Positions 20,139 through 47,815 of a stretch of DNA of 64,000 nucleotides are shown one piece after another. The stretch is from Warburgia ugandensis (Eukaryota > Streptophyta > Magnoliopsida > Canellales > Canellaceae): the NCBI GenBank assembly GCA_035236585.1, contig CP141139.1:40061217-40125216 (forward strand). The letters are read 5' to 3'. Numbering within the stretch: position 1 is the first letter of the stretch; every line of letters begins with the position of its first letter. The position numbers and the translations under genes were made by a program. The notes beneath the pieces were generated by a model that was given only the letters and a program-made list of their open reading frames with translations, did not search any database and was not told the origin of the DNA.

Positions 20139-20142
<4 letters not shown>

Positions 20143-20183: not shown

Positions 20184-20186
<3 letters not shown>

Positions 20187-21386
20187 ATATCAATTACTAT
20201 TTCTAAACGTACTTAAGAAAAACTATTTCTTAAAACCTGGAACATCTTTTTTGGTACCTAGAAAACTTCTAGAACAAAAACAACTACTACACGAATCCTA
20301 CTCAAAATAGGAAACCTTCTAAACCTAAATTAATAAGAAACGTCTAAAACTACCCAATAGTAAACTCTCTAAAAATAAGGGTCCTCAAAATAGAAGTTCC
20401 TAGCTAGTAAAAGAATGAACTTCAACTAAAAATTGGAAACCCGTTTCAACTTTCAAAAAACCCGTATTACTTGTTCACTTGAATAGTGACATATGGACAA
20501 TAATTTATGTTCCTTCTTTTTTGCGTCTCTTGTAATTTCTATACATCCTTTTCATTAAAGATGCTCTTGCAACAGATACCATTCAAAAATTTATCCAATA
20601 AAGAGGTATCTACACTTATTCAAGAGAACACGTGTTTCATATAATCCAAGTGGTTAGTGCATTCTCCTGGTCCAAGGTAGTTTACCAAAGTCTGAGGTTA
20701 AATGGGATATGTGACAGGTTGAGAGGGAGCTTTACTTTGAGGCATGGTTAAAGAGCCTCAGTTTATTATTTCCCTTAGTATAAATCACACTGAAGTACTC
20801 CCTGTTACATGTTTCCTTTATGGTTTCTAGTATCTTACCAAAGTAGGAAGCTTTGAGTTTCTTATTCATGACTTACAGCCAGCGCTTAAAAATCAATGAT
20901 GGAAATTACAGATGCAAGATCTGCAGCTGCATGTTAAAACATGGACACAAGCACAAACCTGAACTTGCCACAAAAAAGCATCCAACATTTTCAGGTTGCG
21001 AGGTATCCAATTGTTTGCTGTGGTTTTAGTTCTTGAATCTGTCGTGAGACTTTCCGTAAAGATGTTATTAGACTGCGCGCATATTTGATGGAAGTACTGC
21101 ACTAAGTTTGGTCTCAACTTTTTTAGTTTCTGCTCTTAAACCTCTTGGATTTCTTTGAGAAAACATAAATGGATATAAGGTGAAAGTTCAGCATAGCACT
21201 AATGCCATCAATCATATTCTGTTAACAAGGTAGTAACAAATCAATTATAGTTATTTCTGATCCACTGGCATCGACCCACTCAATTTACATGAGAGCCTCC
21301 CTATTCTGAAGTGTAGAAAGGAAAAAACAACGTAAGAACAAGAAATCACAGCTCAGAGATTTTCTTAACCTTTATCATCCAGGGAA
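20184..21386. other. SPO11-2 3' flank
   Basis: Downstream of the SPO11-2 stop codon on the minus strand. It must contain the 3' untranslated region near 21386. No other gene or recognisable element was seen. Confidence 0.45.
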
Positions 21387-24300
21387 TCAAAAGTATGCTC
21401 CAGCTTGAATTTTTGATGGGACGTACACCTCAGACAAAAAGGAAAATGAAGATATAGACAATGCTTCAATCTCAAATTTCAGTCCACTTTGCAGCATGAA
21501 CTGTAGCTCTGACCTAGCATCAAAAGGACAATCATCAGCTGTTATTACATAAGAAGCTGAAAATGTGCACAATTAAGAACAATTTTGTAGCAGCGACAGA
21601 ATTTAACCTCCATTGAGGTACTTCTCGTTGCAAGTAACATCTTAACAACATGGCTTCAGCTTTCTGCTTATCTGATAAGCAAGGTAGGATTTCGTTACAT
21701 GGGCATGGATAAGAATCAGCAAAGTGAAAATGCTTGTTAAGAAAATCAACATGATAGAAAGGAAATGACAGTCTCTCACCTTTAGGTGTAAGAGGAAGGA
21801 GACAGTGTTCTGGAAGGTGGTATTTCATGGAATCCGAAGGAAAAACCCCAAGCCAGCGTATGTCAGATACACACAGCAATTTCACATCATACGCCATTTG
21901 CTTCAGAAACAGTAAAAAATCTAGTAAGCACGTAATATAATTAAAATAGTGCAGATAGGAAAGTATTCGGTAGTACCCAAGAACTGCTTATTTGCATTTC
22001 AATATATCAATGCAGCAAATGGGACATACTACTGTAGGCTACAAGCCAATAAAGCAGGTAGGGTGGATTTATCATGTAGTCTAAGTTTCTTCTTTTGAAT
22101 GATAGAAAATTTATTAAGAGAGAGATTTATCAAAAGAGTTTCTGTAAGAAAATTGATGGAAAAGGTTATTACAAAGTCACAATGCTCTGTCTTGCCAGCA
22201 CAGGTACACCACAAGAAAGCCAACAGAATTTCTATTTATATTTTTAATGGCCATATAGGATGATTAATTTATAAGGAGGATAGCTCAAAGCATTATCTGC
22301 ATTGCTTACCATAGACCCAAAACGGTAAGTTGTTAGAATGTCAAAACCATAAGGATCGCAATCCACCAAGCAATAGACAGGAAGATGCAGTTTCTCCACA
22401 AGAAGTCGTAAAAACCTGACATAGATGCATGCACACTTGAATAAAATCATATTATAGATTTCAATTTCCTAAAACAGAACAAGAAAAGTACAACACCTAC
22501 AAAATCGGAAAACACAAAACAAAGTAGAAAACAGGGGAAGCCAATACCTTCTGGTAGAAACATCTGGGTAACCTCTTCCCTGAAATTACTTCAGCAATAA
22601 GCACATCAACAATGCTTACAATCAAGAATCAGTAAAGTGGAAAGACAAGCTTACTGTTATGACTATGCAATGATTTGTTTTGCAAAACCTATCATTTGCT
22701 AACCGCTGGAAAACTGCAATAAAAAATCCAGTTGGCAGTTAAATAAGCATGAATGTGGTAAATCACAGTACAAATAAGAAAGGCAGAAATTTTTTTTTAC
22801 CTGTTTCCTTCTCTACAACCAAAATATAATGCGCCATACTAACGACATCTAACCACAACAGTTGAAAGCAGTTTCCAGATCAAGCTCATTTCATAGTAAG
22901 AAATTAATACATGAGCAAGGATAATACGAACAGAAAGATGACCATTAATATAAAGATGATTTCTGTCATGAATATGACTGCTTTGGTACCTTCTACTTGT
23001 TCAACATGTACAGGAACAGGATAGGCCTGCAAATATAACCATTTCAGAGATCTGAGCAAGATAATGATGCTTTAAATTTTGAATTGTCAGGTATGCATAC
23101 CGCGTTACAATTTCTCATACAATCAACTTTCTTGCCATCTTGTAGAAATCTAAGCCAACCCATCACTAACCTGAGACAAAAAACGCATTTACAAAGTAGT
23201 ACTTATCTAAGAAAAAATGTATAAACAAGAGGACCCCGAAACAGAATTCTCATATAAAGGTTGCAGGATATTATTTATTTTATGTGAAAAAGTGAGAATG
23301 AAGGAGCAATTAAAGCAGGTGGTGGTAAGTTTCAGGCTCAAACCGACCCTTTTCCTGCAGCCACCTGCAAATAGGAGAAAATATGAAGTTAAAATGCACA
23401 GGATATTGGATTTTATTTAGAGTACTATGTTTCAATAACAGGTATTAAATTAGTCATGGTATGAGTGCTAGCTGCTGGAAACTTTGGTACTTATTGTGCA
23501 ATTTTTGCAGAGAACAAGAACATAAATGACTAGTTTGTGCCCTAATATAAACCTACGCTCAAGTCAGTACAGTAGGGGGAAAATGTAAATGACTAGTTTG
23601 CGCTAATATAAACAATGTTTAACGTAAATATGGAAGGCCATTTTTGGTCTCATTGAATTTAATTGTCCAGTCAGATTATAGATGGCTTTTAGGGAGTCAA
23701 CCTGTACCCAACTTAAACTATATCAGAATCCTAAAAATATCCAACGAGTGAGATTGCATATCCATATACATTTAAACTTGGGTCGGATCTTCAAATAATC
23801 CAACCTTATTGACAGCCTTGTGAGGTCATTTCTTTGCCAGTCTAAGCCAACATCAAATGATATGCATCAGTGCATAATGGAGCAGACTCCACAGAAGACA
23901 AATCACATGACCCAATTGTAAGATGTATTGCTTATGAATGCATATTCTTAGTTTCACCATTCCGTAATGTCTTCTCAAAATCAAAATATTAGAGTACAAA
24001 CCTTTATTTTCTTTTTCTGAACGCCAGTAGCACAAACTTTTGCAATATGGAAGCATTTCTAGTGGTTGACAAACAACAGAAATCTGACATGAACTACCTC
24101 AAATGGATCTTCAAAATACTGTTATGATGTTGGTTATGTCATTGTTGACATTGTCTTCATTATTATTAGTGAATCTTCCATAATAATATAACCTGCTTCC
24201 TTTGTTGTCTAATGAACTCAGAAATGCTATAAACACAACTATGCAAGTGCCATTAAGCCACCATTAGTTAAGAATATAATGTCTTAATTTAGTGCGTGGT

Positions 24301-27300
24301 ATTTGGTTATGAATTTAAAACAATTTCCTTTTGATGGAAAAATACAAATGATGCACGTAAAGGTACAATGTACATTTACGGATCTTCCCTTTTGTTTGAT
24401 GACTGAAAAGGAAAGCATAAATTGCCAAATATTTTACTAGATCAGTACGTACCACATTTAGGTTATGACGACTACATCTCAAAAGGATGCATATGTCATT
24501 GATTACCCGATCTACAACTGCTTGATCTGTATCCAATATAAGAAAAGAAACCTACGAAAATTACAGATACGTCTATGTAGGATCTTCCAAATCGCAAAAG
24601 TTGAAATGATATATCCTGGATTCTACAAAATGCAGTATCAATGAATAAAGAACCTCAAGCTGAATTGACGTGGAAGTTCAATAATTGTAACAGCTGTAGT
24701 GACCAGTTTAGAGGTATTTATCGCTATTTGTTATACGGAATTACTATTAGCTTAAGAGGAATGCTAAACCAAAGCGCTTATAAGCGCTCAAACTTATTAC
24801 ATGAATGGACCCAACTTTGTATGATCTGAATCATTGCTCAAATTGTTTCTACTTTAGATATATTGTCAAGAAGAAATGAGATATATTGACAACTTATGAA
24901 ATTGTGTTTTTGGTCATTGTATATAGACGGTTGCTGAGAAAGTTTCCAACCATCTATCAGAACAATAACCTTTTAGATGTCAAAGTGATCAATCAGCGTG
25001 GTTTTTGGACTAGGAGACATCCAAACCCAAAGAAATAAGATGAACTAATAGATAATCTAAAGGTGGACATTTCATTCAAAATCTTAAAGCGCTTTGGTTT
25101 AGAATTCCTCTTAGTTTAATTGTTTGATGAGAAAATAAGAAAGTAGTCTAGGTAAGGGATACAGCTCTCACGATGTAGACAATAGAGTCAAGATCTTTTT
25201 TCTTTTTCTTTTTTTTTCCGATACATGATAATAGTGTCAAGATTAGTGTTTCCATGAATGTAGTTCAGTAATATGTCCATTATAGTTGAGAAGATCAATT
25301 AGCGTGCAACATATTTCCTTAATATGTTCAGTAAAAGATGAGATCAGCAATCATCAAGTTCTCCAAGATGGACAAAATTGAAGCCAAAGTTGATGCCATA
25401 CAGTGTGCCATTAACATGCTTCCTGTAATCATGCACTGCAAATCCCAAGTCTGCTTCTGATCCCACACCTTTGTATACTAAGGAAGATAACTGGCAAATT
25501 CCTAATTTATGACACTACTATATTTCATCAGCTGTTAGATGTCACTGTTATCATTCAAGCAAGAGAGGTGACAAGTAACAAGACATTGACTGCATACAGA
25601 ACAAAAACAGGACTCCATTATTCTCAAAAAGCAATGAAACTACAAGTATGATAACAAACCATCAAATTTGTCTCAGTGCCAATCATTGGCACAACAATTT
25701 GGAGACGGAAGATTAATCAATGATAAGATTACCCGAAAAGACAGAAGGGTGCATGTAATATATGTCTCTCTTTGATAAATGTTTGTTTTCTTGCAACAAC
25801 TGCTGAATAATCAGCAGTACTCTTAATAGGACATCTGAAAGTGCAAAAGAAAACATATATAAAAAAACAAGGTAAGACTTGAAGTTTCCATCAGTATAAC
25901 ACAGTATCAGCTGTGCTTTCAATGCCGATCTTAAAAGAAATTCCATGAATTTGTTAAAAGCAAGCAAATATCCTGTTTCCGACTCTTGCAAAAGCAACCT
26001 AAAATACCATGACAAGAAAGTTGAGAAACTCACCCAATCTATGTGCATGTCCTTCCCTTTCAAGACATACAATATTCTTACCTATGAGCGAATCGGAGTT
26101 GCAGCAGCTGCATCCAGCAATACATTACAGAAATATATCAAATAAGAAACATATTACTTTAAGATCAGAAGAAAGAGGCAAAGATAAGTAACATTTTCTG
26201 TCCATACTCCACAGTAATATCTTCAAAAACATTCACGAGCTAAAATTCACTAAAGCAATAGCCTCCAGAAAACACAACATTCTGGGAGTTTCAATTGATT
26301 GCAATGTTTCTCCTGTATAAGCTCATTCACGTGCCTAAAACCTTGCACCCTCAAGATTCTCGTCCTATCCAGGAAATATTGCACAATAGAACTTGCGTGA
26401 ATTATTTTATTCTCAAAATCTAGATAACTACATTTTTAATCAGCAGATCAAACTTAGACATTGAAAGCCTCAATGTCTTGGCACATGAAGACAAGTTAAC
26501 TGTTCTATATCCTCTCCCTAGAAAAATTTAAAGCACCTATTGGTGGTTTCTTATCTTTATTGGTGCAGTTATTTCAACTATTTCTGGTACGCAATTCACA
26601 CTCCCAAGGGTTTGTGGTGAATGAGTAGAGTAAGAGCAGCAATCTAGAGCTATCAACGGACCATGGCATTGGCAGAATACACCATAAGATACCACCACTC
26701 CAACAAGCCTACGCTTCCTGCCACTTCTCAATAATCTAGGAACACTTAGTGTTATACATTACATATTAGATAGCAGTCCAACAACCACAGAAGTGAGAAT
26801 ACAATGGAGGGTTCCTCCAACAGAAGTTCAGGTGCTAAATTGTCCAGGCAAAGAAATAGTATGGTGCCTACTCCAGAAAGCACTCATGATGTTATGCAAA
26901 AGCTCGTTTCCTTTGCAATCCCATTGAAGAGAACGAGGATGCATTCATATTGTTACATCTATCAAAGAATCTGCATTTTGAATTATAAATTAGCTATCAC
27001 ATAAATCAGAAAATTTTCAACAACTACCCCAAGACTCTGATTTTACTGAACAAGCTTGTCCTTCCAGTCAATCTAATTTCATGGAAACAAAACTTCAAGA
27101 GGAAGGAACATTACTTTATGTTCCAATTTCTGTTGCTTTTTTTGAATGGCAGATACACACACACATGCACACTCTAGGACCCTGGGCACCCAAGTGATAG
27201 ACAAATTCTTGTGTCACTGTGCTAGAAGGCTTTGGTGCCTATTTCTGGTCCTGTTAAGGATGCAAAAGGTTCTAAAGATTTAGAGAGCACCAAAAAGAAA

Positions 27301-30300
27301 ATCGTTGTCTCCCAAGGTATAAAAGGGAATCCAAAGGCCCCACCAAATATGCTAATATATATGGAGAAGCAAAAAATCGGCAACACAAGGAAGCTGAAGC
27401 GACCCTCAAGAAAGCAAGGGAGAAACTTATAGGCTAAATCTCAGGCGAGCCTTCTCTAACAACAGTTTTCTAATGTTAGTGATTACCTGGAACTGTAGAA
27501 GTGTTTGCAGACCCTCATTTTAGTGTGCAGCAAAGGAATTCCAGAGTAAGTTTAAACCAGATGTGTTTTTCTTGTGAAACCAGAATCTCCAACATTTTGA
27601 CAAATTTCTTTGTGAGCAATGGAAGTCATTTATTCTCATAGAACCGTCATTCCTTTAGAGGTAACTTGGAAGTAACGATGATGATGTGGAACAATTTTCT
27701 TACCCCCCTCTATCAGATAAAATCAAACATCTCAAATGATTTATTTTTTTTTTTTTCAAGATTATTAATAACACTTCCAGTGTTGATGATTAGATTCTTT
27801 CTTTAATTTATGGAAGCCTTGACATTTCCAGGATAATAATAATGTAGGAGGATCTTAAATCCCCCAAAGGATCCTCTCCTCTCTCCTGGGTTAATGAGGA
27901 GACTTTAACTCTATGATATATTAGGAAGAGAAGGGGGCCGGTTATCCTATGGACTTGAGTGTTGCTAATGATTTCTTAGATGGAATGGATGAATGTGGGC
28001 TATTGGATTTGGGATTCTCAGGTACCTCCATTATGTAGACTTATTGCAGGAAAGTTAGAGCCTGAATCCACAACGACTTGAGAGGGCTATTGCTGAATAA
28101 ATAAGGGGGAGAAATTTCCAGGGGCAACATTAACACACCATCCTAGAATTGCCTATGATCACTCTCCCGTTCTCCTCAACACTGTTTCTTACCCTAAGGA
28201 AAAGGAATTTGGACTATTCAGGTTTGAGAATATGTGGATCTATTATCATGAGTTTAAGGATATTATTTCCCAAAATTGGTCCTCTAATTCCCTTGGTTCA
28301 AAAACTTTTCAATTATGCAAAAATCTCAAAGAAACTAGCAAAGCCTTGTCCAACTGGAACGAAACCAGTTTTGGAAACATTTATCACAATATCTGAGAAA
28401 ATATGAAAAAGCTCCACTCTCTTTGGAATCTTAGATCCTCTTCTCAATGGAATGAAGAATAAGAGATAATGGAAGAACAAATTTTAAGTTTTTTGCATAA
28501 CCTTAGTTGAACCTATGGACGTAAGGTGAATTCTTGATTTCATTGTTTACAGTCTCTCAATTTAATAGAGGGGAATGAAGCCATGATACTTAATAGAGGG
28601 GAATGGAGGAACAAGATTCATGTGGCCAACCCCCAATTGGGATAAGGTCTTGATGATGATGATTGTTTGCAATCTCTCAATTTATAGAGGAATACAAGGG
28701 TTGACTACAAAGGATAAGATCTACTAAAATCAAATTATACAAGGTAAGTGAGTCAGCTGTTATCTACAGCTGTGATTTGAGGCAGTTAATTACAGATCTA
28801 AGAGGGATTTAAGGAGATAGTTTGGATCTTGGAGGGATTTAATATGATATTATCTCAATAATCCCAAATTAGAAATCCTCTAATATATACCATAAGCTGG
28901 TACTAATATCTAACAATATCTTGGCTTTCCAATTCTCTCCCTCAAGTTGGTGAACAAATATTTATCATTACCAACTTTTGTCTACAATCATCCCATAGTT
29001 CTTGCTGTCTAACCCCTTTGTCAACATATGAGCAAGTTGCTTCTTCATAGGAACATATGGCGTGCAAATCCCCTGACTCTATCTTCTCCTTCATAAAGTG
29101 CCTGTCAATCTCTATGTTTGGTTCAATCATGTTGCGCTGGATTATGCACCATGGATATAGCTGCCTTGTTGTCACAGTATAATTTTATAGGCCCTTCAGT
29201 TGGAATCTTCAAGTCTTTCAATATAATTTATATCCACAGTAACTCACACACCCCCCATGCCATTGCTCTAAATCCCGCTTCTGCCCTAGCGTGAGACACA
29301 ACCTTCTGTTTCTTACTTTTCCATGAGATCAGATTACCTCAAAGGAATGCACAGTAACTATGGTGGACCTGCTATCAATGATGCATCCAACCCAATCTGA
29401 GTCTGTGTAGGCTTCTACTTCCATAGTCTCTTGCTTAGAATATAAAAAACTTTTGTCAGGACATTATTTGAGGTATTTCAATATTCTGTAAACGGCCTCT
29501 ATATGGTCTTTCCCGAGGTTTTGTAAGAATTGGCTCACTAGCCCTACTGCCAAGCCTTGTATATGATAGATATAACATTTTCCCCACTATACTTGGTATC
29601 ATCCTTTAGATACCATCTCCTCGCCTTGATTCAACTCAAGCTTTTTGTTAGTCTCAATTGGAATACTTACTAGTTTTCCCCCTATGAGCCTCGTTTCCTT
29701 CAACAGATCAAGTACATACTTCCTTTGGAAAATGAAGATTCCTTGCTTGGACCGGGCTATCTCAATTCCCAAGAAGTATTTCAAGGCTCCTAGGTCCCTG
29801 ATTTGGAATTTGCGTGCTATCCTTTCCTTTAGAGTGATCATGCCATTTGTATCATCTCCTACAACTACAATATCATCCACATACACAACTAGTATAACAT
29901 ATTTCCTAATTTTGTTGTGTTTGATAAACAAAGTATAATATCCCTAACTTTGGTGATAACCACTATTCAACATGAATCTAGCAAGCCTTCCAAACTATGC
30001 CCTGAGTAACTGATTTAAGCCACAGAGCCTTCTTTAGTTAGCACACTTGTTGTTTTTCTCATTCCTCAAACCATGCAGTACTTCTATATAAACCTCTTTT
30101 TCAAGTTCTCCATGTAGGAAAGCATTCTTCCCATCATATTGATAGAGTTCTCAATCCTTATACAAGGCAAGAGATAGCAAAATTCTAAAGGTGTTAAGTG
30201 TGGCAACTGGTGCAAATTTCTCAAAGTAGTCTATTCCTCGAGTTTGAGTAAATCCCTTTGTGACTAGCCTTGCCTTCTATGTAGTCGTAGGCGCACCTAG

Positions 30301-33300
30301 GTGCAAGGGGTGCGACTTGCCCCTAGAGGGACTAGGTGCGCCTAGTTGTGCGCCTAGAAGTCAAGGAGCAAAATTAAGTAATTTAATTTTTAAAAAAAGA
30401 AAAACATCACAAAAATTACAAAAAAATCCAAAAAAAATACATAGAAATATAAAGATATGAATAAATACTTGTCAAATAGTGAAGTGGAATTCTTAAGTAA
30501 TAAATAAACATATCAAGTGTCAACAACAACAACCTAAAGTTAAACTAAACAATCAGACATAAATAAGTTTAGAAATATACAAATACAGTGAAAGTGATCT
30601 CCTTGCTAGTGCTGCTCCCTCAATCCCTTGTGGCCTCGTCATCATTATCACCACTATCTTCCTGTAAATGTAAATCCAAGCACAATAAACAATAGTTATA
30701 TAAATAAAGTAAAGCAAATGTTAGAGTTAACTACTAACACTTAAGAGTCATCTTCCCGTACCTCTTCCCTATCATGAAGATCAAGATCGTCATCAAAATC
30801 ATCTTCCTGAGAGATGTAGACATCCTCCTTAGTCTCCTCGTCATCCTACTCCTCTTCTCCAACATCCTCATCTGGTTCTTGATGAGCTTGAGACTGAGAA
30901 ATGTGGCTCCCCTTCTGCCCCCTCCCTTGCCTCTGGTATTGCCTACTAGATATCACATTCACTTGATCCTTCAGCGAGCTCAACATCTAACCAAGTGAAG
31001 TCATCACTTGGGTGCACCAGATCTCTAGCATCTTTTTGAACAATCCACTCATCACTTTCGTCGATCACTCATAATAAAATAAGATCTGTACATGTTTGCA
31101 TTTTCAAACGATCGTCATGTCGATGACGAAAGCGTTGATTGTATTGAACATATACTAGATTGTTCAATGTGTTAGCGTGCAGCCCATTCCTATTCTGATT
31201 ATGGATTTGAAAAGAAAAAGTAATTATAAATTTTGAATACAATGAATATATACTAAATTACTAATAACTAATAAGTACTAAATCTTAATATTTAAGTAGC
31301 TTACATTCTCAAAAACACTCTACTTGCGCATGCAAGGATATGCACTGCATATCTGAGAGAGGACCTTAATGACGAACGTTTGAAGATGTAGGGCTTCAGC
31401 CTCAAAGTTAATCCACCACTCACCTACATAAGTTGAAGAAAATTAAAGTTAAAAAAAAATAAAATTATAATATTATAAAATAAAATTTATAAGTTAAAAC
31501 TTAAAATATAGAATAACATAAAACACTTATGATAGGCTAGGGTTTTTCTCTTGCATATTGTCAAGTCATTGCCAAACAAGTCTCTAGCATGTCTGTAAAT
31601 GGATATCTCATCTAAAACCATGTCAGCCTCATCTAGATCATATGGCCTGCTGATGCATGCATTAGACCATTCTTAATATCACTGTTGCACTCAATTTCAA
31701 TATCATGATCATAGTAGAAGGATCGGTAGAGGTAATAACCGGTTGCATGCAAAGGCTGGTGAAGCTGAGAACTCTATTTATTATGTATGATCCCTAGGTA
31801 GTCACAAGTGCGACTAGTCACTATGCGCAAAAAGACGCACCCTTGCGACTCAACTAAGGCCGGGCGCAGTGGATTTAAGGCTATTCCTAGGCGCGCTACT
31901 TGCTGCGCCTTGCGCTTTCTGCACCCCCGACTCCAGGCCGTAACTGATATAAAACCCTTCTTCTTTTTTCCTTTCTTCTTCTTCTTTTTCTTCCTAGACT
32001 TCCTTTCTTCTTCTTGTGACCATCCTCATCTTCCATTGGCGATTGAAGGTTTCTTGAAGTGATGAAAGGTAAGTTATTGATAAGATGGTACATTTTGAGA
32101 AAAGAGTAAGCTAAGGGTTATTTCTAAGAGATGCCTATTTCTCTTTTCAACTAAGCCATTTTGGGAGGGTGTACAAGCACAAGACATTCGATGGACTATA
32201 CCTTTTGCAATAAAAAATCTTTTTATTTCAAATCTGGTATACTCAACCCCTTGATCACTTTGTAAAATTCTAATTTTTGAATTAAAGAGTGTTTCAATCA
32301 TGTTTACAAAGTTACATAGGGGTATTTGAGACCTCGGATTTGTCTTTTAGGAGGTAAAGCCATGTGTGTCTTGTGCACTCGTCAATGAAAGTAACAAAGT
32401 ATTTATGACTTGATCTACTAGATACACGGCATGCCCCCACACAATCAAAATGCACCACAAAGAAAGGAATTGCAGTTTTATTATCACCAGAATGATAGGT
32501 TACATGTTGATGTTTAGCCATTTCACAAGAAACATACGACGTAAGTTTTGAAAAGAAGGATGACCTAATCTCCTATGCCACAACTAGAGCTGCTCCTTTG
32601 GGTCTATAAGAGTACTATGTAGTCCAAGTGGATTTTGAGGCTGCTGTATGTCGGGTTCTAGGAGATAAAGACCACCTAATTCTCTAGCAAAACCACTCCT
32701 CTTTATTGTGATTGGGTCCTGCAAGAAAGAATCATCAATAGAAAAACATACCAGCTTGTTAATTCCCTTAACTAACTTATGAACAGAGATTAGATTAACT
32801 ACTAATTTTGGTATATGAAGTGTGGAAGTGATCTGTAGGCTTAGTTTAATTCCTATAGACCCTTTTCCAACCATTGCTGAGTGACTACCATCAGCCACCT
32901 CTACTTTTTGAAGGCTAGAACACAGTTTATAGGTATGGAATGCCATAGAGTTCCCTGTCATGTGCTGAGAGGCACCTGAGTCTCGTATCTAAGCTTTAGG
33001 ATTGCTAATAGTAGTTAGAGCTGAGAGAGTTTTACCAAAGTTTGATGAATCGGGGTCTAGACTTTCTTCCTTTATGATTTTTCTGATCTCAGCTAGCTAC
33101 TTAGGAGTGAACCTGAAATCACTTCCTTCTGCAGCAACTTGGTAGCCTTTGCTGCCTTTTCTTGTGCTTATAGTTTTGTAAAAACCTAACAAGTGCTAAT
33201 GTCATGGTGAGGCTTCTTGCAGTGTGTGCACCGCAAATCAGCTTTGGATCTTTACCTCTGCCTTTGGCACTTGTCTTTCCATCTGTTTTAGTAGCCATAG

Positions 33301-36300
33301 CAGTTTCAACCTGCGCTTCTCCAGTCATAGCCTTCTTTCTGTTCTCTTCACTTCTAACCATGGAGAAGGCTTCACCAAGAGTAGGAAGGGGCTCTTGCTG
33401 ATAGCCAATAAACACACAGCATCAAATTCTAGTCTAAGTCCCGCAAGAAACTTAAATGTCCTCTCCTTTTTCCATTATCAAAGTAACTTGGGGTGAGATT
33501 TGTGTAGCAACGAGCTCCACACTATGATAGTAGTTCAACTCCAACCATAGTCCTCTGAGAGTGCTATAGTAAGAGTTGACATTTGAGTCACCTTATTTGG
33601 TATCTCTAATGCGGTTCTCGATCTCATACATCTGTCCATCATTGCCTATTTTTTAATAGGCTTCCTTCAATGCCTCACAAATCTCATTTGCATTCTCAAT
33701 GAAAAGATAATTCTTCTTGATGCTAGGTTGCATTATTTGGATCAACCAAGCTATCACCAATGCATTGTCCTCCTCCCATTTGGTGGCGGCAGCACCTTCC
33801 TCTAGTTCTCTTCGACCCATCTAGATATTCAAATTTTCCTCTTCCTCTTGAGTGTGAGTTTCGCTGATTGAGCCCAACTGATGTAGTTGTGAGGGCTGAG
33901 TTTGTCAAAAACCATTGGCAGATTTGTGGATTCACCATTGCTGGCTGCAGTCTGGGTAGGAACTTCTAATGTGGTCTTGTTGTTGGCCACTTGAGGGGTT
34001 GTGTTTGATCTTTGGAAAGTAGTTCTGGTGTGGACAGAAGTAGACATAGGATTGCCAACCTCTAATACCAAGTTGAACTAATGGAAGTAGAGTGAATTCT
34101 TGATTTCATTATTGACACTCTCAATTTATAGAAGAATGCAATGGTTGACTATATAGGATAAGATCTAATAAAATCAAATTATACAATGTGAGTCAGCTGT
34201 TATCTACAGCTATGATTTAAGGCAGTTAATAGTGGATCTTAGAGGAATTTAAGGAGATATGATATTATCTCAATAATTCCAAATTAGAAATCCTCCAAAT
34301 ATGGTAACTGTAGATATCATAAGCTACCTTCCAATTCTTTTTCTCCAACAAGAGACCCATTTTCCGCAAAAGTCAAGAATTCAATCTCATGGTACAGCCA
34401 ATAATTGCAGGTCTAAGAATAATATTCCTTTCTTAAAGATATTAAAGGCTTTAGTTTCTCCCATCAAGAATCTAAGAAATAGATTATTGTGGATCATTTT
34501 AAGAGACTTCTTATGTTTATTAAAAGAAGTCTTAACATGGAGGATAATGCCAAACTTCTCTCTACAATCACTTAGAGGAAGTTTCTAAGCTTCTAAATGT
34601 TGGAAATGTATGCACTGCATAGTCATTATACAACATTTACTGTAATCTCCACCGACTGTTTCAATGATCAACACACTTTATTTAATCATGTTATGCTAAT
34701 AATACATAACAAGATACTAAGAATATAAGTTAGTCATAAGATGACAACATACTCCAAGAGTCGCGTAATTACCTCTGGAACCTTAAACAACAAAGGAGGA
34801 GTTCCATAAAATGGAGATGATCAATTCTTATGTTGTTTAAGGTAGAGACCTTGAACATACATAGGTTGTGCACAAGTTTTACACATAGGACATAACCTCA
34901 CCTATTTAAAACACTAAGTGTTACTAGATATACATAATCACAATTACCCTTAGACTAGAGGAATATATATTCCTAACGAAGTCTAATATTTGACTTTAAT
35001 GCATTTTATGATGAAATCTATTCAAGGTTGTCTCTAAGTGCAATATGACCTTTATACTCATAAAAGATATAGGACGACAAACAAGGGAACCACTCCATTA
35101 TATAAAGTAAGATATTCATTGCAAATCTTGTAAATTCACTTGGTAAAACGCAAGGCCTTGATGATCTTTCATAAAATGCTTACCAAATTGATATTGTATA
35201 TATAGGTATTAAAGATATGATATTTTCAAAAGGTATTTTGAAAGATATTTAAAGTTCATTAAGATGGGGTCAATTGTACTTGATGTACAAGGGTGACATG
35301 CCTAGGATAAGTCAGACCATAGCTTCATATTGGTGTCACAAATGAATATCGTTAAGTGGAAGGTATAATGGTAATTACTTATAAGGGTACCTATGTAATT
35401 AATCTTCTAATGTGGGGCTGTATGTGGTTATTGGTTGATAGATTTGCTTGATGCAACATCATCATCTCTAGCATGGAAAAAATGTCGTTAAGGAATTGAC
35501 AGAGTAAGACTCAAATTAGAAATGTGGTTTCTTGATTGGTAAGCTAGAAGAGATATCATACTTAGAAAGTTCTTAAAAGGTCACACCTAAAAGGTTAATT
35601 GGAGTCAAAATAGGAAAGTAATTTCCTAACTTGAGATTAACTTGGGGAAAACTCTTACTCATAACTTGGGGATGAAATTGGTAACCCATGATATCAACTA
35701 TTGTAGCCCAGGCCAACAGCATGGATATTGTCCGCTTTGAGACAGCTCCACATGGCCCTCCCAGTCCAGGGAGACCGTAGCCCTCTCTCTTCAGGATTTT
35801 GTTCTTCCCAATCCAGCAAAAAGTGTCCTTTCTGTGAAGGGAAATCCATCACTTGTAACCAACCCAGACCACTCCTCCTAGGAAATGCGAGACTAACACA
35901 AGCCACCCGTAGGCTGCCATCTAGTAGCCCATCACCATCTTATCCAAGACAGCCCACTCCAACCACCACAAAGGCACCCTCCCAGTCCAAGGAACAAGGC
36001 CCTCGCATGCAAGTCCAGTCCAGGACCCACCGAGTAGTCATATGTGATCTAGCCAATACCCACCTAGGCCTGGCTCTGATACCAATTGATGTAGCACAGG
36101 CCAACAACAAGGATATTGTTAGCTATGAGGCAGCTCTGCATGGCCCTCCCAATCATGGGAGATCAATATAACCCTCTTTCCTCACGATTTTGTCCTTCCC
36201 AATCTAGGGAAAACGCGTCCTTGCTGTGAAGGGAAATCATCCCTTATAACCAACCCAGACCACTCCTCCCAAGTAATGTGAGACTAAACACAAGCCGCCC

Positions 36301-39300
36301 GCAACTTGCCATCTGGTAACTCATCACCATCCCATCAAGGAACGCTCACTCAGACCGCCCACAAGGCACGCTCCCAATCCAAGGAACATGCGCTCTCGCA
36401 TGCAAGTCCAATCCAGGACCCACTGAGCAATCACATGCGGTCTAGCCCACACCCACTTGGGCCTGGCTCTGTTACCAACTGATATAGCCCAAGCCAATAG
36501 CAAGGCTATTGTCCACTTTGGGGCAGCTCCCCTCCCAATCCAGGGAGACCGGTAGCCCAATTCAAGGAAAATGCGTCTTTGCTATGAAGGGAAATCCATT
36601 CTTATATCCAACCCAAACCATTCCTCCCAAGCAATGTAAGACTATCCCACGTGCCACCTACAGCTTGCCATCTGGTAGCTCGCCACAATCCTATCCAAGA
36701 CCGCCCAAATGGCACCATTGATGGGACCATCCCACTTCTTTTCCCTTATGATTTATGTTATAGTTTAGTTTTTTTTATCTTGGATATTTACCACCGAGGG
36801 TATTGGGTTTATTATTGTGTTGTGACTTAAGTATGAGCAATTTTATCTTTTCTTCTAGATTAGGGTTGGACGTCCCCTACTTAAGATCTTTTTCTATTAT
36901 TTGTAATTTATTTTTTATGAATGATGAATAGAGACTATTTTAGACCTGGTGGATTCCTTGTTTCCTTCTGGTAGGCGTAAAGCTGCGTCTAATACGAGGT
37001 CGAGTAATACGTTTCATCCTTAACTATCATTCAACATTTCTCCACTTTATCTTTTATTAGATAATTTCTGTGCTACATTTGGCAACATGCTTGTATCTTT
37101 AATTATCATCTTGTGCCAAATTTCTAGAAACCCTATATCCGAAGCTTGATCGGGATCATTCATCAATCAGAGGGACAACCCAGATTAAAACTTCGATCTT
37201 ACCTTAATCGATACAAGTTTGGGACGATGTACAAATCCTATGACTCATTGTAGGTTATTTCATGCTTATGATGGCTATTTTGCTGCATGTTAAAAGTGCT
37301 AGTATAAGTTTAATTTATGTTTCCTTATTTAAATTGATTCTAATATTATCTCAACATATATCTTAGGCCATTTTGCATGCTATCCTACATCAAATTTGAT
37401 ATCAAAATGAGGTTGTTTATCGAATTGTCCATTAGAGCCTAAGAGGTTTGCATCAATTGCATCTGGTTCAACAGAATATGATTTGGACCATTGGAGATGG
37501 CATATAAGTGAATGCTAGGGAGCTACCGATGATCGGCATCTTATGATGCAATAAGACTGGCTATGAAATCATGACCGTCATGAACTCCCCAATTCATCAT
37601 GTGCATGGGTGCACAAATGGTGATTTGGAGTGAATTTCTCAAACCAAACAAGACATCATGGTCATGAATCAGAAATCTGACCTAAATTGATCGAGTGGGC
37701 AACTTCACCTACCCGCAATCAAAGCAAATTGATGGTGGGAAGAGATTGCTACTAGTGGTGAAGCCGGAGACATTGCACAGCTAGTTGAAAGGAGTGATGC
37801 TAGAAGCAACAAAGAAGCCAATCATGCAAGTTGTTGATGCTATCAAGGGGAGAAGGTAGCATTAACAATCATAGGTTGTGATTTTACCCTGTATAAGAGG
37901 GCTTCCTCTGTCAATTCCTACGTGGAGAACCAGCGGGTAGTGGAAGGAGAGACAATTGATGATGAAGATGCAAGTGTCGCCTCCCAGGTAGCAAGGGGAT
38001 TACAAAAAGATCACCAGTGGCTAAGCACCAATGGAGCGACGAAGAGGACGAAAATCCAAAATGAGGGGATCCCATTGGACTACAGTGTTCATCACTAAAG
38101 AGAAATTAGATATCCACAACTAGTAGTAAATGATGGGACTCCCGAGAAAGATAAATGAAAGAAGACAAAAAAAGAGGAAAGATGTAAAAAGGTGAGCGAG
38201 AGAGATTGAGATGTAAAGAAGTAAAGGAGAGTTGAGGGAGGCTTTGAGCCTCCTCCTCACTATGTAATCTAATCAAATAGTATATTCCTCCTCTCCCATG
38301 GATGTAGGCACGAATAGGACAATCACACATACTAAAAGAGAAATAAGATAAATGTGGTTCGACCATCATGCCTACATCTAAGGGAGATGAGGAATATACT
38401 AATTGATGAAATTAAATAATGAGGAGAAGGGTCAAAGCCTCACCCAACTCTCCTCTACTTCTCTACATCTGAATCTCTCTCACTCACTTTTTTCCTTCTT
38501 TCCTCTTCTTTATTTTATTTTTCCTTACTTTCCTTTTTGTCTTCTTTCCTTTATCTTTCATGAAAGTCCAACCGTCTACCACAGGCTGTGGATGTTTGGT
38601 TTCTCTACTGCAATGGACACTACAGTCCGGTGCGATTCCCCCCTTGTTCTAGATCTTCATCCTCTTTGTCACTCCATTGATGCTGAGCCACTGCCAATCT
38701 TGTTGTAATCTATGTAGTTAAAGGCGCACCTAGGCGCTAGTTGACGGTTAAGCGCCTGGGAGGGGACCAGGTGAGAGTAAATGAGGTGCGTGCCTGGGTG
38801 CGCTTGGGCGCCCCTTTCAGGCGCGCCTCTGACTCCAGGCGCAGACGACTCAACCAGGTAACTTATAAAACTCGTTTTCTTTTTTCATTTTTCACCTTCC
38901 AACCCTAATTTCAATCTTCCAACCTCCTGAGAAGGTGAAAACGACCATTCCTCTTCGATCTTTCACAGATCTAAGCAGAAAAAGGTATGGATTTATGAAT
39001 TTTACAATGTGTATACAGTTTCTGTAAAAAAACGTAAAACCAAGACTGCTTTTTCAAAATTTTTGTTTTTTGTTAACTATTTTCCATAGATCTTGATGGG
39101 TTTTAGTTCTATATGTATAAGAAAACATTCCATTTGAGTTTTATACTTCTTTGCTCTAGATTTGAGTTTGTTTTTAGGTTTTTTACTGTTTTTCCAAAAA
39201 AATCAGTTACAGAAATTAAAAAAAGTCGTCGCTTTTTTGTATTTCTTCATTGAAACATATTTCTATCCACATATATAGCTTTTCCATGCTTGTGTCTTCG

Positions 39301-42300
39301 TGTGTGATAAATTTTTTCATCCTTTTTTTGTACTTTAGAGTTATTTTTTTATTTTTTTATTTTAAAAAAAAGTTACGAAAATTAGGAAAAAATTGTTCTT
39401 TTTTATATTTATTAGTTAACACCTATTCTTATCCACATATATAGCTTCCTCATGCTTGTATCTTCATGTATGATGTACTTTTCATGCTTTTTTTGTATTG
39501 TAGTGTTATTTTGTTCAATTTTTCCGAAAATAAAACTTACGAAAATTAGAAAAAATTTGTTTTATTTATATTTATTAGTTAATACCTATTCTTATATACA
39601 TATATAGCTTTCCCATGCTTGTGTCTTCATGTATGCTGTATTTTTCATGCTTTTTACGAATTTATTAATGATTTTTAGCTAATTTTTAATTATAAAAAAT
39701 ATAATTTTGCGCCTCAAGCTCCAGGCACGGCTCCAGGTGCACCCCTTTGCACCTCGATGCGCCTCGCGCCTTTAACTACATAGGTTGTAATCCCTCTACT
39801 ACCTAAGCGGCAACACGCGCATTGTCGTAGTCAATCATCTCTCCTTCCACTGCCTGCAGGTTTTCCACGCAAGAACTAACAGAGGAAGCCTTCTTCTACG
39901 GTGTCGAATCATGCCTCTAATCAATTATACTAACTCCTCCCCTTGATGGCATCAACAGCTCGCATGATCGACATCTTTGCTACTTCCAACATCACTCCTT
40001 CCAACTAACAGTGCAATTTGTCCAGCTTCATCACCGACAGTAGTCAAGTCGCATCAGACTTCTCCGCTCCACTAACAGCAATGGATAGCACAATGGACTT
40101 TTTTATTTTCTTCTTCATCACCGCCTATAGTATCAGCCTTTTCACACCTGCTGGCGATCTTTTTCCACCACCTGTTCACTTCAATTGACGGTGGGTGAAG
40201 TAGAAACATCGAACCTCCCGATGTATGTGTGCTCAATTTGGGGTCTTCAAATGAATATGCATACACTAGGATAAACAATAAGAATCCTCCATGTATATAG
40301 CTTCCCAAGATGGGCTCTTCAAATAGTGTCTACATTTTTTCATTTTTAGATAGTTTTTATTTCCTCATTAGTGCGTGCTTGTGAATGGCCGGCCGGTCCC
40401 TTGAAATGGAATCATTCCCCCATTATTCTTTCTGGAGAGGGTCCAATCGGGCATACATGGGTCTTCAATCATCTCTCACGCGTACATCTCCCTATAGTGG
40501 GTTCCACACTGTAGTACACATGTATGTGTACGAGGTCTTCCACTCTTAGAAACCCATCGAAATGGGGGCCCACCTCTGTCAACTTTGATATGTTCTGAAG
40601 TCACGTCCAAGATAGTGATTATCGTCATGGTAGCTTCGTGATGAAGGTGGGGCTCCTGGCAACGTAAAATGTCATTACCAATCCAGAAAGTCTGAATCTA
40701 AGCGTTAAAGCTCATACTGTATGATCCAAGTACAATCAAATGCAGACTTCTCCTTGCACTTGACAAGGAATTTTCGGTAACCACCTTATCTAGTGGACAT
40801 TATCTAATCATCAAGTATCTTCTCTACTTGTTCTTTTGCTGGATGAACCTCTAGGTGCAAAGGTAATGGTTGTGTGAGTGGGGCATGGGGCCAAGGGCTC
40901 TTGATGGACTGGCTAAGATCAATGTTCGAGTTAGGGCCAGGGTCAAGACTAGGATTAGTGGGTGGGCTAGTGGGGTGACAAAAAAGAACTAGATCCTCTA
41001 CATTAAACATGGAACTAATACCACAATCAAGTGGAAGATCCAGGATATAAGCTTTCTCCCCTGCCAGCCTTAAGACTAGAAAGGGACCAACACTGTGAGC
41101 CTGTAACTTTTGAGCGGCCCCCTACGAAAATTGCTCAAGTCTCATACGGACCAAAACATGATCGAGTGACTAAAATTCCTTATATCATCTGTAAAAGTCG
41201 GCAACAAATTTATATCTCCTGTTCCTTGAACTAACCCTTCGGCTGATCTCAGAATGCAAATCATGGATATGCTCAAATGACTACTGATTCAAATGACCTA
41301 TGTGATGTAGGCATGGTATGAGATCTATAGGTATCCTAGGTTGTACTCATGAACACCTCAAAGGGACTAATATCAATTGTTAATTAACAGACTTACTACA
41401 TGCGAACTTAACAACTGATAAAATGGTATCCCTACTCTAATGTGCTCTCCCTCTAAGCATCTCAACAAATTCTCTAGGCTTTGATTCGCGACTTCCATCT
41501 GACCATCCGTCTGTGGTAGTAAGCAGATAAGAATTGAAACCTAGTGACCATCATATGCAAGTGTTTTCCAAAAATAGCTAACAAACTTGACATCTCTGTC
41601 AGACATTATGGACTTTGGTAACCCATGTAACCAGACTACTAACATCCCTGGCTCTGATACTAATTGATATAGCTCAGGCTAACAGCAAGGATATTGTCCG
41701 CTTTAGGGCAACTCCACATGGCCCTCCCAATCCAAGGACAGGTAGCCCTCTCCCCTCACAGTTTTGTCCTTCTCAATCCAGGGAAAATGCATCCTTGCTA
41801 TGGGAAAATTCATCCCTTATAATCAACCCAGACCACTCCTCCCAGACAATGTGAGACTAACACTAGCCACTCGCAACCTGCCATCTGATAGCTCGTCACC
41901 ATCCTATCCAAGACTGTCCACAAGGCACCCTCCCAATCCAGGGAATACACGCCCTCACGTGCAAGTCCAATCCAAGACCCACTGAGCAGTCGCATGCAAT
42001 CTAGCCCACACCCACCCAAGCCTAGCTCTATTACCAAATTTGATTTAGGACAACATGTAAATTGGCCTAATATATGTGCTGAGATCATATTAGAATTAAT
42101 TTAAATAAGGAAACATAAATTAAAGAATCACTAACTCTTTTAACATGTAGAAAAACAGAATAAGCATGAAATGGCTTACAATGATTCACATGATCTGCAA
42201 ATCGTATCAGATCTATATCTATTAAGGTAAGATCGAAGTTTTAATCCAGATCATGCCTTTGATTGATGAACTGTCCCAATTTAGCTTTGGATTTAGGGTT

Positions 42301-45300
42301 TCCAAGAATTTGGCGCATGATAGTAATTAAGGATACAAAAGCCATAAAACCAAATGCAACACAAAACCTATCCAATAGAAGATAAAATAAAGAAATAATA
42401 AAGACAAATAGAGATGAAACACTATTACCTTGACCTCATAACAAATGCGGCTTCATGCCCACATGAAGGAAACAATGACAAGAAATCCACCAAGTCTAAA
42501 GTAGTCTCTATTCATCATTCATCAAAACTAATTACACAAAAGAGAAAAGGATCTTAAGTAGAGGACGTCCAACCCTAATCTAGAATAAAAGACAAAATTG
42601 CCCCTATTTAAATCACAACACGATAATAAACCCAATACACTAAGTGGTAAATATCCAAAGTAATTAAAAAAAAAAAAAAACACTAAACTATAATATAAAT
42701 CCAACTCAAGTAGTTACACCAAACCAAATAAAGGGGTTCTCACTTTCCAATTTTGTTCCACAAAACCCCATAAAGATCTACTCTTTAAGTGAGGACCAAT
42801 CCATATGTCATTGATTTCTTGTGACTATTTTTTCTCAATTACTTATTAAATATTGAATTGAGACATAAGTCAAATGGGAAATCATTGAGTAGTCTACTTC
42901 CCCTCGAATGATGAATCCATTTAAAGGAATATCATGGAGCTCATAATGGATTTACCCATTCTAAACAAGTTAAACAGTTGTTGTCAAAAAGTGATGAGAA
43001 ATTTCTTGTGGAAAAATGGTGAATCTAAAAACTCTCACATGATTAAATGAGATTTTAAAAAAACCTATGGGGCCCTTGGTGTTCGGAAAACTAAACCAAT
43101 AAATGATGTGTGCATGGCCAAGCTTGGGTGGTCCATTTTAACTAACAGAAAATCTCCATGTATTGACCTTGTCAAAGCTTAATATTTGCACACCGTCTCC
43201 CTTTTAGACGCTGAGGAAAAGCCCTACCAATCTGCTGTTTTGAAAGCAATGTTCAGAGCTAGAACTATCTCAAAAAAGACTATATGTGGAACATTGGTAT
43301 TGGTAAATCTGTTAATTGTTGGAAGGATAACTGGATTGACTGTAATCCAATCTCCAATATGATGGATCTACATAGTTCTAGTATTACCTTCCAAGAAGAA
43401 AAAGTTGCTTCTCTCATTGGTCCCATTTCCGATGCTTGGAAAATGGATATCATTTTTAATAGATGGGGAGAAGAGATTCCTCAAAAGGTTGTGAAAATGA
43501 CTATTACAAGATGTCCAATGGAGGATGAAATTGTTTAGAAGCTTGAGAAATATGGAAAATTCAGTGCTAAAACTGCTTATAACCTTGCTAATTGCTCCTA
43601 CCCTCAGTTCTCTGCTCCTTCAAACCCCCCTCGTTTTTGGAAGAAATTTGGTCCTCGAAAAATTAACTTAAGATTCTGTTATTTCTTTTCCAACTAATTC
43701 ATAATGAACTCCCTTCAAATGATGCCTTCCTTCTGCTGGAATGCACATGAAGATCATTTCTGTAAGTTCTGTCCTAATTGCTTCCAAACTAATCACCATT
43801 CAATTTTTTGACAGCAGCAAAGCACCTCAGACTGGAATATAACTTATGCCTTCTCCTCCCAGCAGCTCATGTCGGGGAAATGCCTGTACTGAGATAATTT
43901 CTAAATGGTTTGATCTTGCTTCAAAGACAAACAGACCCAAGATTGTATTCCTTGTTGCTCATATTACATTGACATGGTATATATGGAAGAAAGGAATATA
44001 TTATACCATGGAGAAACATTTCCTTCATTTTTTATTGATTGGAACTTGTTCTTCTATGTTTGTGATTATTGAAACCTTGATCTCCTTAACAACTGTTACA
44101 AACAAGGAACTCAATTACTTACAGGTTTGGAGACAGAATAGCATTATTTTGAGAACATCAAAGGTTATCATGGTCAAATGGATGCCACCAAAAGAAGGAT
44201 ATGTTAATTTAAACTTTGATGGGGCTTCAAAAGGGAATTTGGAAAGAACTGGGGCTGAGGGTACCTTTTGTGGCTAACATGGGAACTTTGTACTAGCTTA
44301 CAGTTCGTTCCTATATAATCAAACAAATACTGTGGTTGAATGGAATGTATTACCGGCAGGATCGAGATTAGCTGATGAATTTCAATTTATAAAACTGTAG
44401 ATAACAGGTGACTCTCTCCAAGTAATTCAAACTATCAGCAATGCCTCAACTTACAAATGGAATGACAGGAACTAGACTCCGAGGACACTGATTTCAGAGA
44501 GCTTGTCCTTACTGTCTAACCGGAACTCATGGATAGCAGCACACACATATGGAAAGGAAATAGAGTAGCAGAGACTAGCTACTCATGCAGCGAAATCTAA
44601 ATCATCTAAAATTTGGAAAAACTTTCGTCCATCATTCCTAGGATACTTGAGGCCTGGTGTTGGTTATGCTATGTACCATAAAATAAAAAATAGAATTGTT
44701 GATCGAACCATCACACAGAGGCATCACAGACCAAGTCCCGTGACGTACAAAGATCCAGTCTACTAAGTCAAGGGTCTGTACACAAAAGCTTCTTTGGAGA
44801 AACCCTAAGTTGAAGTATTTTGCAAGTGGGAGCAACATCAAAATTTTGGTGGACACAGGCTCAAAGGATCTCGTTCATATCCTGAAAGTATTGTGTAATT
44901 AAAAATTCAATCCCATTAACTTTAAAACAACTGAAACCTGACTCTGGTTTCCCATGATCTGTGTATCAGAGAAGTGCATTTCCAAGCATCGCTATATGGC
45001 TGTTTGGGACGGGAAAAACAATCCATGCATTAAGTCATTCCGTACCGAACAGGCCCGATGGACTCCCCCAAAGTTCAGAACTGCGTCGAAACGCTATAAT
45101 TTCCTAACCTAAAACACAATCAAAGGTTGAAATGAAACTTTAAACAACAGAAAGAAGAGAAATGAGATAAAGCAAAAGGAAACAATCATAATTTCGGAGA
45201 AATTCAAGAAAATTGTACCAGTTTCCGGTAGGATCTGTGCAGTAATTTCTGTATCGATCAAAGGCAACTAGAGGAAGGCGCTCCCTGTTGCAGAGATCTT

Positions 45301-45465: not shown

Positions 45466-47815
45466 TTTTCGCTCTCTTTTTTGCTTCCAGACGACGGAGA
45501 AATGAAGCCACTGTTTGATTTTAAACTTTCTTAAAGTGCAAAATGCTAATAGCCTTCGCTCAACCATACTTTCTGACGCGTGTTGGGCCCATCTGAGATG
45601 TCCCAAATCTGTGGTGATGATGCTGTAATCAGATGGGTCCCACATGAAAAATAAGATGATCCAGACTTGCTATACATACTGGAACCCACTCTTCAGTGAT
45701 CTAAGCACTCTGGTAGATAATTTGCATCAAACCATCCAAATGGGCCAAGGTTATTTCCCGTTTCTTGGCAGGAATTGTGGCAAAAGACCGGGGAACCACG
45801 GTTTTCTGATGATATGAACCATTCATCTTTACCGTCTCGCCAAATGTGTGTAAGGTCCAAAAATGACATGGTTTGGATGATCCTGCTACAGATGGTTCAG
45901 AGCCCCTTTAGATATCGTCCATTTGAAAACACCAACTAGCTGAGGAAAACAACTATGGGACCACTCGAAAGACGTAATTTTTCGGAGAGGATTCATCTAG
46001 GCCAAATTTGTTAAGAGGACGATTCATTAGCGCCAAATTTGTTAAGAGGAAATACCATTCCGCTTCTTGACCGACGATATTCATTAGCGCCGTCGGCCAA
46101 TTCGGGTTCGGGAAGGGTTCTCCTTGGGATCCTATCCTCTATATCCAAATCCCACGTATTCCAGTTCGGTTGGATTTAGGATATTTGTCAATAGATTTTT
46201 AATCATAAGACGTGCGAAATAATAAATTCCTTGGCTACAAAATTACAAAATTTCCTGGGAAAAAGCTTCAAGATAGGGTTAGCTTTTTTAGTTTCAAGAG
46301 GGAGAAAGAGGAAAAATGGAATAGTAAAAAGCTGGAGAAGAAAGAAGGAAAATTGAGGTATGGAAAAGAGAATTACAAAGCAAATCACTCACACACACTT
46401 CTAAATCTAATTCCCATCCAAAGAAAAAAGTAATGAGTTGAATCTACAACCAAGTGTGCTCTTGGAGAGAGATTGAATTATCTACAACCAACTGAACTAG
46501 ACATTTGGTGAAGGAAAAATGAGGTTGCTAAACTTAGTACGGTAGGAAAGAAGTTTATAAACAACTCATTTTTCCTAATATAAACCTACCTTTAACATAA
46601 ATATAGAGGGCATTTTGGTTGGGTCAAGTTTTGGAATATGCACCTAAATTCTTACATTTGATTATGTAGATGGGAAGTTTTTCGTCTACATTATTATACT
46701 GAGAGAACTAGGGAGTTCAACTGGTTAGGAGTTAGGATGTTCTGATCTACCTAAATAATCTAACTATATTTGGCTAGTAAAAAGTACTTACTTTGATATG
46801 TTCAAATCTAATCATTGTCTTTATTATCTTATTTTTATTTGTTTATTACATGAACAAGTGGTTAAACAACTAGAGAATCTAATTTTAATTTTAAAAAACT
46901 AAAATATCTCTAATTTATCAAAACCTCAATACAATAATATAAGCAATTTGTAGAAAAGACTAACTACATACTTCCTTTTTCATATAGGTCTCTCTTGCCT
47001 ATAGGATCTTGCTTTATGGTGAAATATTTCAATTTATATGTGCAAAGTTTGGATTAAATTTAGTTGGATATAACAATGTGAACTCTTGTGTAGCTGGACA
47101 ATTAATCATATATCTCTATTAATAGATTTAACTACCTAGGATGGCATTAGATGTTAAAAGGTGAAAAGTTCATACACTTGTTTTTAAGATAGTAAGTATT
47201 TCTATCTTTTCTTGTGTATTATATTTATAAACCATTAGGATCCAATCTAATTCTAAATATGTTAAGACTAAACATCAAGGACAAGATCTAAAGAATTGTT
47301 TGACTAGGATTTGAAAGGATTGAGATCAGAATGGTTAGAATTGTAAAATTAGTGCATTTGATCTAATTCTAATTGAACCCTAAAGAGAACTTCTCCTACT
47401 TTTGAGGAAGAGTGTTGAATCCATTTTAACATAAAGAAGCACAAAAGAAGCATGTTTAGGCACTTTTTTTCTTTTCACTAAAGGAATTTAGTTATAGAAA
47501 CTAAGCTACCACATTTCATCTAATTCCCTTCCTCCCAGCCAATTACAACTTCCACGTCCCATAAAAACTAGTAGCCCATTTCTACTATCATATTACTTCA
47601 AATCATTTCTTCAGTAATGCTTCCTTTACTGTACATTCTCTCTTTCTGGAGTAAACCCAATTTTTGTAATTGATTGAGAAAGTCAATAAAGTTTGAGTTT
47701 CAAAAATTTTGGGCTAAAATATTAGGGTTATTTAGAATATACTTCTTATAAAAATGTAATCAAGGAATAAGACATGTACACTTAAAATTAAACTTAGCAA
47801 ACCCTTCAGAATGAC
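45466..47815. other. SPO11-2 upstream region
   Basis: Holds the presumed SPO11-2 5' UTR and promoter, just above 45465 on the minus strand. A direct repeat GCCAAATTTGTTAAGAGGA occurs at 46001 and 46032 (31-bp period). No other gene was seen. Confidence 0.45.

Follow-up and report, generated by a model that had tools for sequence, protein, structure and literature searches.

How does a gene that meiosis depends on keep its reading frame across an intron packed with transposons? The question is raised by a SPO11 gene on the minus strand of a 64-kb stretch of the Warburgia ugandensis genome (C14:40061217-40125216, in a genome of 1.12 Gb and 14 contigs), hereafter referred to as the window, in whose coordinates positions without a contig name are given. 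We identify the gene as SPO11-1, an essential meiotic gene that is single as far as the genome could be searched and whose frame is kept exactly through 19 kb of nested transposons. Rebuilt from the window, its 15 exons, each of which occurs once there, join into a 1,089-nucleotide (nt) open coding sequence (CDS) for 362 amino acids (aa). The rebuilt CDS places the parts of the gene as follows:

45411..45465, minus strand: exon 1, with the start codon
45219..45321, minus strand: exon 2
26108..45218, minus strand: intron 2, 19,111 bp, GT-AG, phase 2, without N bases
26034..26107, minus strand: exon 3
21387..25834, minus strand: exons 4 to 15, overall span
25834-25733, minus strand: exon 4
24526-24453, minus strand: exon 5
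23364-23348, minus strand: exon 6
23170-23101, minus strand: exon 7
23026-22990, minus strand: exon 8
22848-22801, minus strand: exon 9
22713-22655, minus strand: exon 10
22579-22548, minus strand: exon 11
22415-22310, minus strand: exon 12
21900-21780, minus strand: exon 13
21671-21608, minus strand: exon 14
21513-21387, minus strand: exon 15

All 14 introns have GT-AG ends, and the motif YYMHP in exon 4 is presumably the catalytic-tyrosine motif. A preliminary description of this DNA had placed exon 1 at 45465-45411, exon 2 at 45321-45219 and the start of exon 3 at 26107, and had claimed an intron of 19,111 bp, a TG/C codon restored at the junction of exons 2 and 3, an open 1,089-nt CDS and a range of 74-1,206 bp for the remaining 13 introns; the coordinates, the frame and each of these claims were confirmed when the gene was rebuilt.

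The same description had called the gene SPO11-2, and this name is wrong. Land-plant SPO11-1 genes are described as having 15 exons and 14 introns, the Arabidopsis CDS measuring 1,089 bp (362 aa), whereas SPO11-2 is described with 11 exons, some intron losses and 383 aa in Arabidopsis (Sprink and Hartung 2014, PMC4071758). The window gene matches the plant SPO11-1 genes of that source in exon count and the Arabidopsis gene in CDS length, the features on which they were compared, and its intron 2 measures 19.1 kb. SPO11-2, for which 11 exons and about 380 aa would be expected, was rejected as a name for a gene with 15 exons and 362 aa. Because the gene has this structure and the actual SPO11-2 occupies another locus, we assign it to SPO11-1, and the corrected name directs later work to the right paralog. 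The protein is 66% identical over 357 aa to an Arabidopsis SPO11-1 sequence, whose N terminus is matched by the translation of exons 1 and 2, versus 35% over 289 aa for an Arabidopsis SPO11-2 sequence and 36% over 259 aa for the SPO11-2 of its own genome. The TP6A_N domain (Topo VI A / SPO11 family) was found above the cut-off at the window gene, and a PDB search returned five sequences, of which the four of topoisomerase VI A reached 1e-36 at best and the fifth, a meiosis-specific SPO11 (8urq), 1.1e-16. The first 111 residues had no match among plasmids, a comparison that carries no information on a gene from a plant.

When the genome was searched with the entire protein, 14 matches were obtained. 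Eleven lie at the window locus and three at paralogs, one of them a gene on C7 (3.7e-70); the matches on C10 and at SPO11-2 are weak. No second SPO11-1 copy and no second set of exons 1 and 2 was found by this search, which very short exons could escape. The C7 gene is a single uninterrupted open frame of 465 aa, which we take to be SPO11-3/TOP6A. A separate SPO11-2 lies on C14, 7 Mb from the window gene (C14:32989188-33000308; 11 exons, 1,146 nt, 381 aa), and its protein is 70% identical to the Arabidopsis SPO11-2 sequence. Its intron 2 is 6,788 bp long (C14:32993266-33000053) and its other introns are 79-1,359 bp, so that in both meiotic SPO11 genes the second intron is the longest. By eye, open reading frames (ORFs) in this SPO11-2 intron include Gypsy-gag-like and RTE-like pieces.

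What fills intron 2 of SPO11-1 was examined with Pfam on 20 of its 68 stop-free ORF pieces (60 aa or longer), together with long terminal repeats (LTRs), target duplications and translations compared by eye. The main layers are the following:

26926..44907, plus strand: L1 (LINE) remnant, antisense to the gene and broken by later insertions; tentative limits
28505..34325, minus strand: Copia LTR retrotransposon, gene-sense, within the L1; Pfam domains, LTRs and target duplication
34601..42800, no strand assigned: second interruption of the L1, its extent estimated by eye
36750..37401, plus strand: long inverted repeat, arm 1, about 78% to arm 2
42032..42701, minus strand: long inverted repeat, arm 2, about 78% to arm 1
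38710..39783, no strand assigned: hAT-like non-autonomous element, 1,074 bp, with terminal repeats CTATGTAGTTAAAGGCGC and an 8-bp duplication

The preliminary description had listed L1, Copia, RTE, hAT, TRIM-like and other LTR sequence and a long inverted repeat. For the L1, conceptual translation bears the claim out, as the plus-strand translations flanking the Copia and at 42.9-44.6 kb resemble one plant L1 by eye and a 144-aa piece (43.84-44.27 kb) recurs at no fewer than 44 other genome places (E up to 0.001, 24-54% identity; 150 of 464 candidates scored); Pfam does not, since the three L1 pieces tried gave no match. A candidate 10-bp target duplication, CAATCCCATT, lies at 26916-26925 and at 44908-44917, just after an A-rich tail, although such a match between the compared stretches could be chance and the limits of the L1 are accordingly tentative.

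The Copia claim held. Minus-strand pieces at 29.6-33.0 kb match RVT_2 (6.2e-17) and Pol_BBD (4.2e-16), both above the Pfam cut-off, whereas the rve matches (2.6e-5 and 0.017) fall below it; the LTRs lie at 28505-28898 and 34071-34325, flanked by the 5-bp duplication ACCTT at 28500-28504 and 34326-34330. The Copia was inserted after the L1, because the plus-strand frame of the L1 reads on continuously from flank to flank across the empty site with its ACCTT duplication. Two blastn blocks, which share 15 positions of the right LTR, show 24 differences between the LTRs of the Copia in 247 positions compared (15 transitions and 9 transversions). MAFFT alignments of the LTRs (Kimura two-parameter distances 0.194 and 0.202) were set aside, as non-matching ends had been aligned together. 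At substitution rates of 0.7-1.3e-8 per site and year, the insertion would be about 4-7.5 million years old.

The second interruption contains fold-back repeats and, at 35.7-36.7 and 41.65-42.05 kb, gene-sense repeat units with a primer-site-like motif, presumably of the tRNA-Met type, which fit the TRIM-like label. A Gypsy-type (Tf2 SH3) piece at 40807-41121, minus strand and gene-sense, exceeds the Pfam cut-off (7.7e-9) and represents the other LTR sequence. The hAT-like element bears out a further label; its 8-bp duplication, GTTGTAAT, lies at 38702-38709 and 39784-39791, and a 9-bp reading is also possible. The long inverted repeat is real; the predicted pairing energy of its arms is -706.8 kcal/mol, whereas eight shuffles of one arm average -184.7. 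No RTE match appeared among the 20 scanned ORF pieces, a scan made without a transposon library, and the RTE claim was thus not confirmed; in one set of ten of these 20 pieces, none reached a Pfam cut-off. Near the intron 2 donor, 45000-45070 resembles by eye the end of a small DNA transposon.

Besides the order of insertions, intron 2 records what may be a methylation scar with a sharp promoter-side edge. We counted CWG (CHG context) against a first-order expectation, with GWC as a reversed-motif control. In the transposable element (TE) block of the intron, 353 CWG were observed and 515.5 expected (ratio 0.68, bootstrap 0.61-0.76; control 0.93), compared with 184 observed and 168.5 expected (1.09; control 0.93) in the non-TE sequence of the gene. 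All eight 2-kb bins from 28 to 44 kb lie at 0.55-0.77, the 26-28 kb bin at 0.84 and those from 20 to 26 kb at 0.98-1.19; the Copia has 0.63 (control 0.84). At finer scale, all five 500-bp bins from 43.5 to 46.0 kb, which cover the promoter side, exons 1 and 2 and the 3' part of the L1, lie at 0.99-1.38, and upstream of 46.0 kb the ratio drops to about 0.4. Depletion is thus strongest at about 28-43.5 kb and spares the exons, the other introns and the promoter side. On the promoter side, the stretch 43500-46000, with the 3' part of the L1 in it, forms an undepleted island flanked by the depleted intron and by depleted upstream DNA. The pattern suggests long-lasting CHG methylation of the middle block of the intron. 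As a scar it says that this block was probably methylated; regulation of the gene by methylation does not follow from it.

Elsewhere in the window the ratio is 0.63 (1-7000), 0.72 (16200-21300) and 0.49 (46000-64000), and 1.05 in an ORF at 7.6 kb that we take to encode a channel. A Gypsy element on the minus strand at 10690-16143, with a weak chromodomain match (0.0023, below the cut-off), appears young because its LTRs are 97% identical and it is without CHG depletion; its ratio is 0.97 (control 0.86), and new insertions therefore seem undepleted at the start. Intron 2 of SPO11-2 has a ratio of 0.53, but with a control of 0.66, compared with 0.99 (control 0.80) in the rest of that gene and 0.64 and 0.35 in its flanks. 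Two long gaps in myosin genes gave 0.73 and 0.91 (control 0.90 in both).

These gaps come from a sample of 13 myosin-head clusters (97 matches) in which 49 of 84 neighbouring pairs were kept, the 35 others having a gap of <60 bp or lying >25 profile positions apart. The median gap was 140 bp, nine gaps reached at least 1 kb and two at least 5 kb (14,087 and 7,049 bp), and some may conceal a missed small exon. A 27.2-kb intron is reported in a T. cacao IBM1 copy (PMC11265718), and 23 genes with introns >100 kb in Sapria (PMC10246380). Given these values and the SPO11-2 intron 2, the 19.1-kb intron is in the tail of the known size range.

As a TE-filled, promoter-proximal long intron, SPO11-1 intron 2 is also of a kind already known: plants tolerate TE-loaded introns, and the SPO11-1 case is a striking example. 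RPP7 carries one Copia, whereas SPO11-1 intron 2 holds several nested elements. At RPP7, where a TE likewise lies within an intron and for which COPIA-R7 is named (PMC7529245), heterochromatin loss leads to early polyadenylation (PMC10241880). Rice heterochromatic introns are described as long, TE-bearing and biased toward the 5' end, at an average position of 3.02 compared with the second intron here (Espinas et al. 2020, PMC7145194), and the heterochromatin-sensing intron of IBM1 is a long, methylated, repeat-bearing intron in a regulator gene (PMC11265718). Methylation was measured in the rice introns and its control of output is a feature of IBM1, whereas the SPO11-1 intron and its layers are known from DNA, and its putative methylation is read from a sequence scar. 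A literature search on SPO11-1 and transposons returned no paper naming SPO11-1, which is not proof of absence.

Fragments of SPO11-2 may bear on the first exons of both genes. They lie at C10:21540001-21549000 (L016, 4549-4915) and C5:8494001-8502000 (L017, 3940-4326), with exons 3-5 joined without introns and with stop codons, and we classify them as processed pseudogenes. The two are 87% identical over 774 bp, which is longer than the exons account for, and about 370 bp past exon 5 has no good match in the SPO11-2 gene. Directly before exon 3, both carry 23 nt (L016 4893-4915, L017 4304-4326) identical to a stretch that lies within SPO11-2 intron 2, some 290 bp ahead of exon 3 (8555-8577 of L014, a piece of the SPO11-2 locus), in a junction that is not a clean splice join. 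The 23 nt may derive from transcripts with another upstream exon inside SPO11-2 intron 2, or from a deletion.

Taken together, we consider it very probable that this is the sole SPO11-1 found in the genome, that successive insertions swelled its intron 2 and that the intron is still read through and spliced, tolerated and not selected. An antisense L1 would have entered an intron 2 of probably about 1.1 kb, if the 10-bp duplication is correct, and the sense Copia and a second cluster with the hAT-like element would then have landed inside the L1. RNA polymerase II (Pol II) would pass the methylated block, and exons 2 and 3 would be joined just as across a shorter intron. Arabidopsis Pol II can cross intronic TEs; when IBM2/EDM2 or heterochromatic marks are lost, transcripts are polyadenylated early in some TE introns (PMC10241880). 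Because the Copia, the primer-site repeat units and the Gypsy piece are gene-sense (the L1 is antisense), early polyadenylation would be the main risk for this intron, and suppression of the IBM2/EDM2 type probably guards the sense-oriented LTRs. AATAAA occurs 24 times on the gene strand and 20 times on the other, counts that by themselves do not show such a risk. Were intron 2 retained, the frame would run on for 26 codons, counting the junction codon, before a stop. One strict pattern found no recursive-splicing-like site on the gene strand, and the window contains no known structured RNAs (gathering scores) and no tRNAs.

Several observations weigh against read-through and tolerance of the intron. 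Its donor has 5 of 9 consensus positions, the lowest of 14 (tied with introns 7 and 14), and its acceptor 6 of 13 pyrimidines, the second lowest (tied with intron 10). The join of exon 2 to exon 3 (45219 to 26107) is deduced from DNA. An open frame is no proof that the gene was used recently: the Copia LTRs differ by ~10%, and we estimate that a gene freed from constraint since that insertion would have gained only a few stops. First exons may not be fixed in the SPO11-1/SPO11-2 pair, because the two SPO11-2 retrocopies link exon 3 to a stretch of intron 2. The L1, the oldest layer, is less depleted of CWG (0.85, confidence interval 0.69-1.02; control 0.85), contrary to what a simple trend with age would give, and the intron's own edges have a ratio of 1.03 with a control of 0.58, on small numbers.

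The alternative that survives best is that CHG/H3K9 methylation of the intron 2 TE block sets the balance between full-length and LTR-terminated SPO11-1 transcripts, as in Arabidopsis IBM1. A scar within the intron that spares the promoter side, the gene-sense Copia and primer-site repeat units and the weak intron 2 splice sites would all suit it, as would the retention of intron 2 reported in later anther stages for Arabidopsis SPO11-1 (PMC8430568) and the early polyadenylation that follows IBM2/EDM2 loss in TE introns (PMC10241880). However, the window flanks are equally or more depleted (0.49-0.72) and one myosin gap is similar (0.73), so that the scar would mark methylated TEs generally, and we judge such a switch unlikely. 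Intron 2 may nevertheless have a regulatory role, and the preliminary suggestion that methylation of the intron may matter gains indirect support from the scar and from the literature on such introns; an effect on splicing efficiency or meiotic dose, also suggested there, is hypothetical. The locus is a natural setting in which to ask whether SPO11-1 output is limited by heterochromatin in an intron. An extension that we rate as a long shot is that the apparently methylated TE blocks at intron 2 of SPO11-1 and SPO11-2 (19.1 and 6.8 kb) could couple heterochromatin state to the dose of the DNA-break machinery; if true, full-length transcripts of both genes would fall when TE silencing is lost, and meiotic breaks would become fewer.

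It is very unlikely that the locus is split or dying, with exons 1 and 2 unjoined from exon 3 and either another first exon in use or a silent gene. The weak splice sites, the DNA-based join and the 23 nt beside exon 3 in the two retrocopies would be expected under such a history, but the CDS is wholly open, all 14 junctions are canonical and no other SPO11-1 locus was found. Moreover, the intron sequence just upstream of exon 3, read in frame, meets a stop six codons ahead of the junction codon, and no Met follows that stop; exons 1 and 2 correspond to the N terminus of Arabidopsis SPO11-1, and both meiotic SPO11 proteins are described as indispensable to the formation of breaks, in Arabidopsis as in other plants (PMC8430568). 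An assembly chimaera that joined two gene parts through an unrelated repeat block is barely credible, for although misjoins are typical of repeat-rich sequence and the linkage of the parts is read from the assembly, the whole 64-kb window has no N bases, the parts stand in correct order, strand and phase, and the nested insertions carry target duplications, as genuine insertions do.

Beyond SPO11-1 and its intron, the ORF at 7621-8619 encodes 332 aa with two Ion_trans_2 stretches and is probably a two-pore potassium channel.

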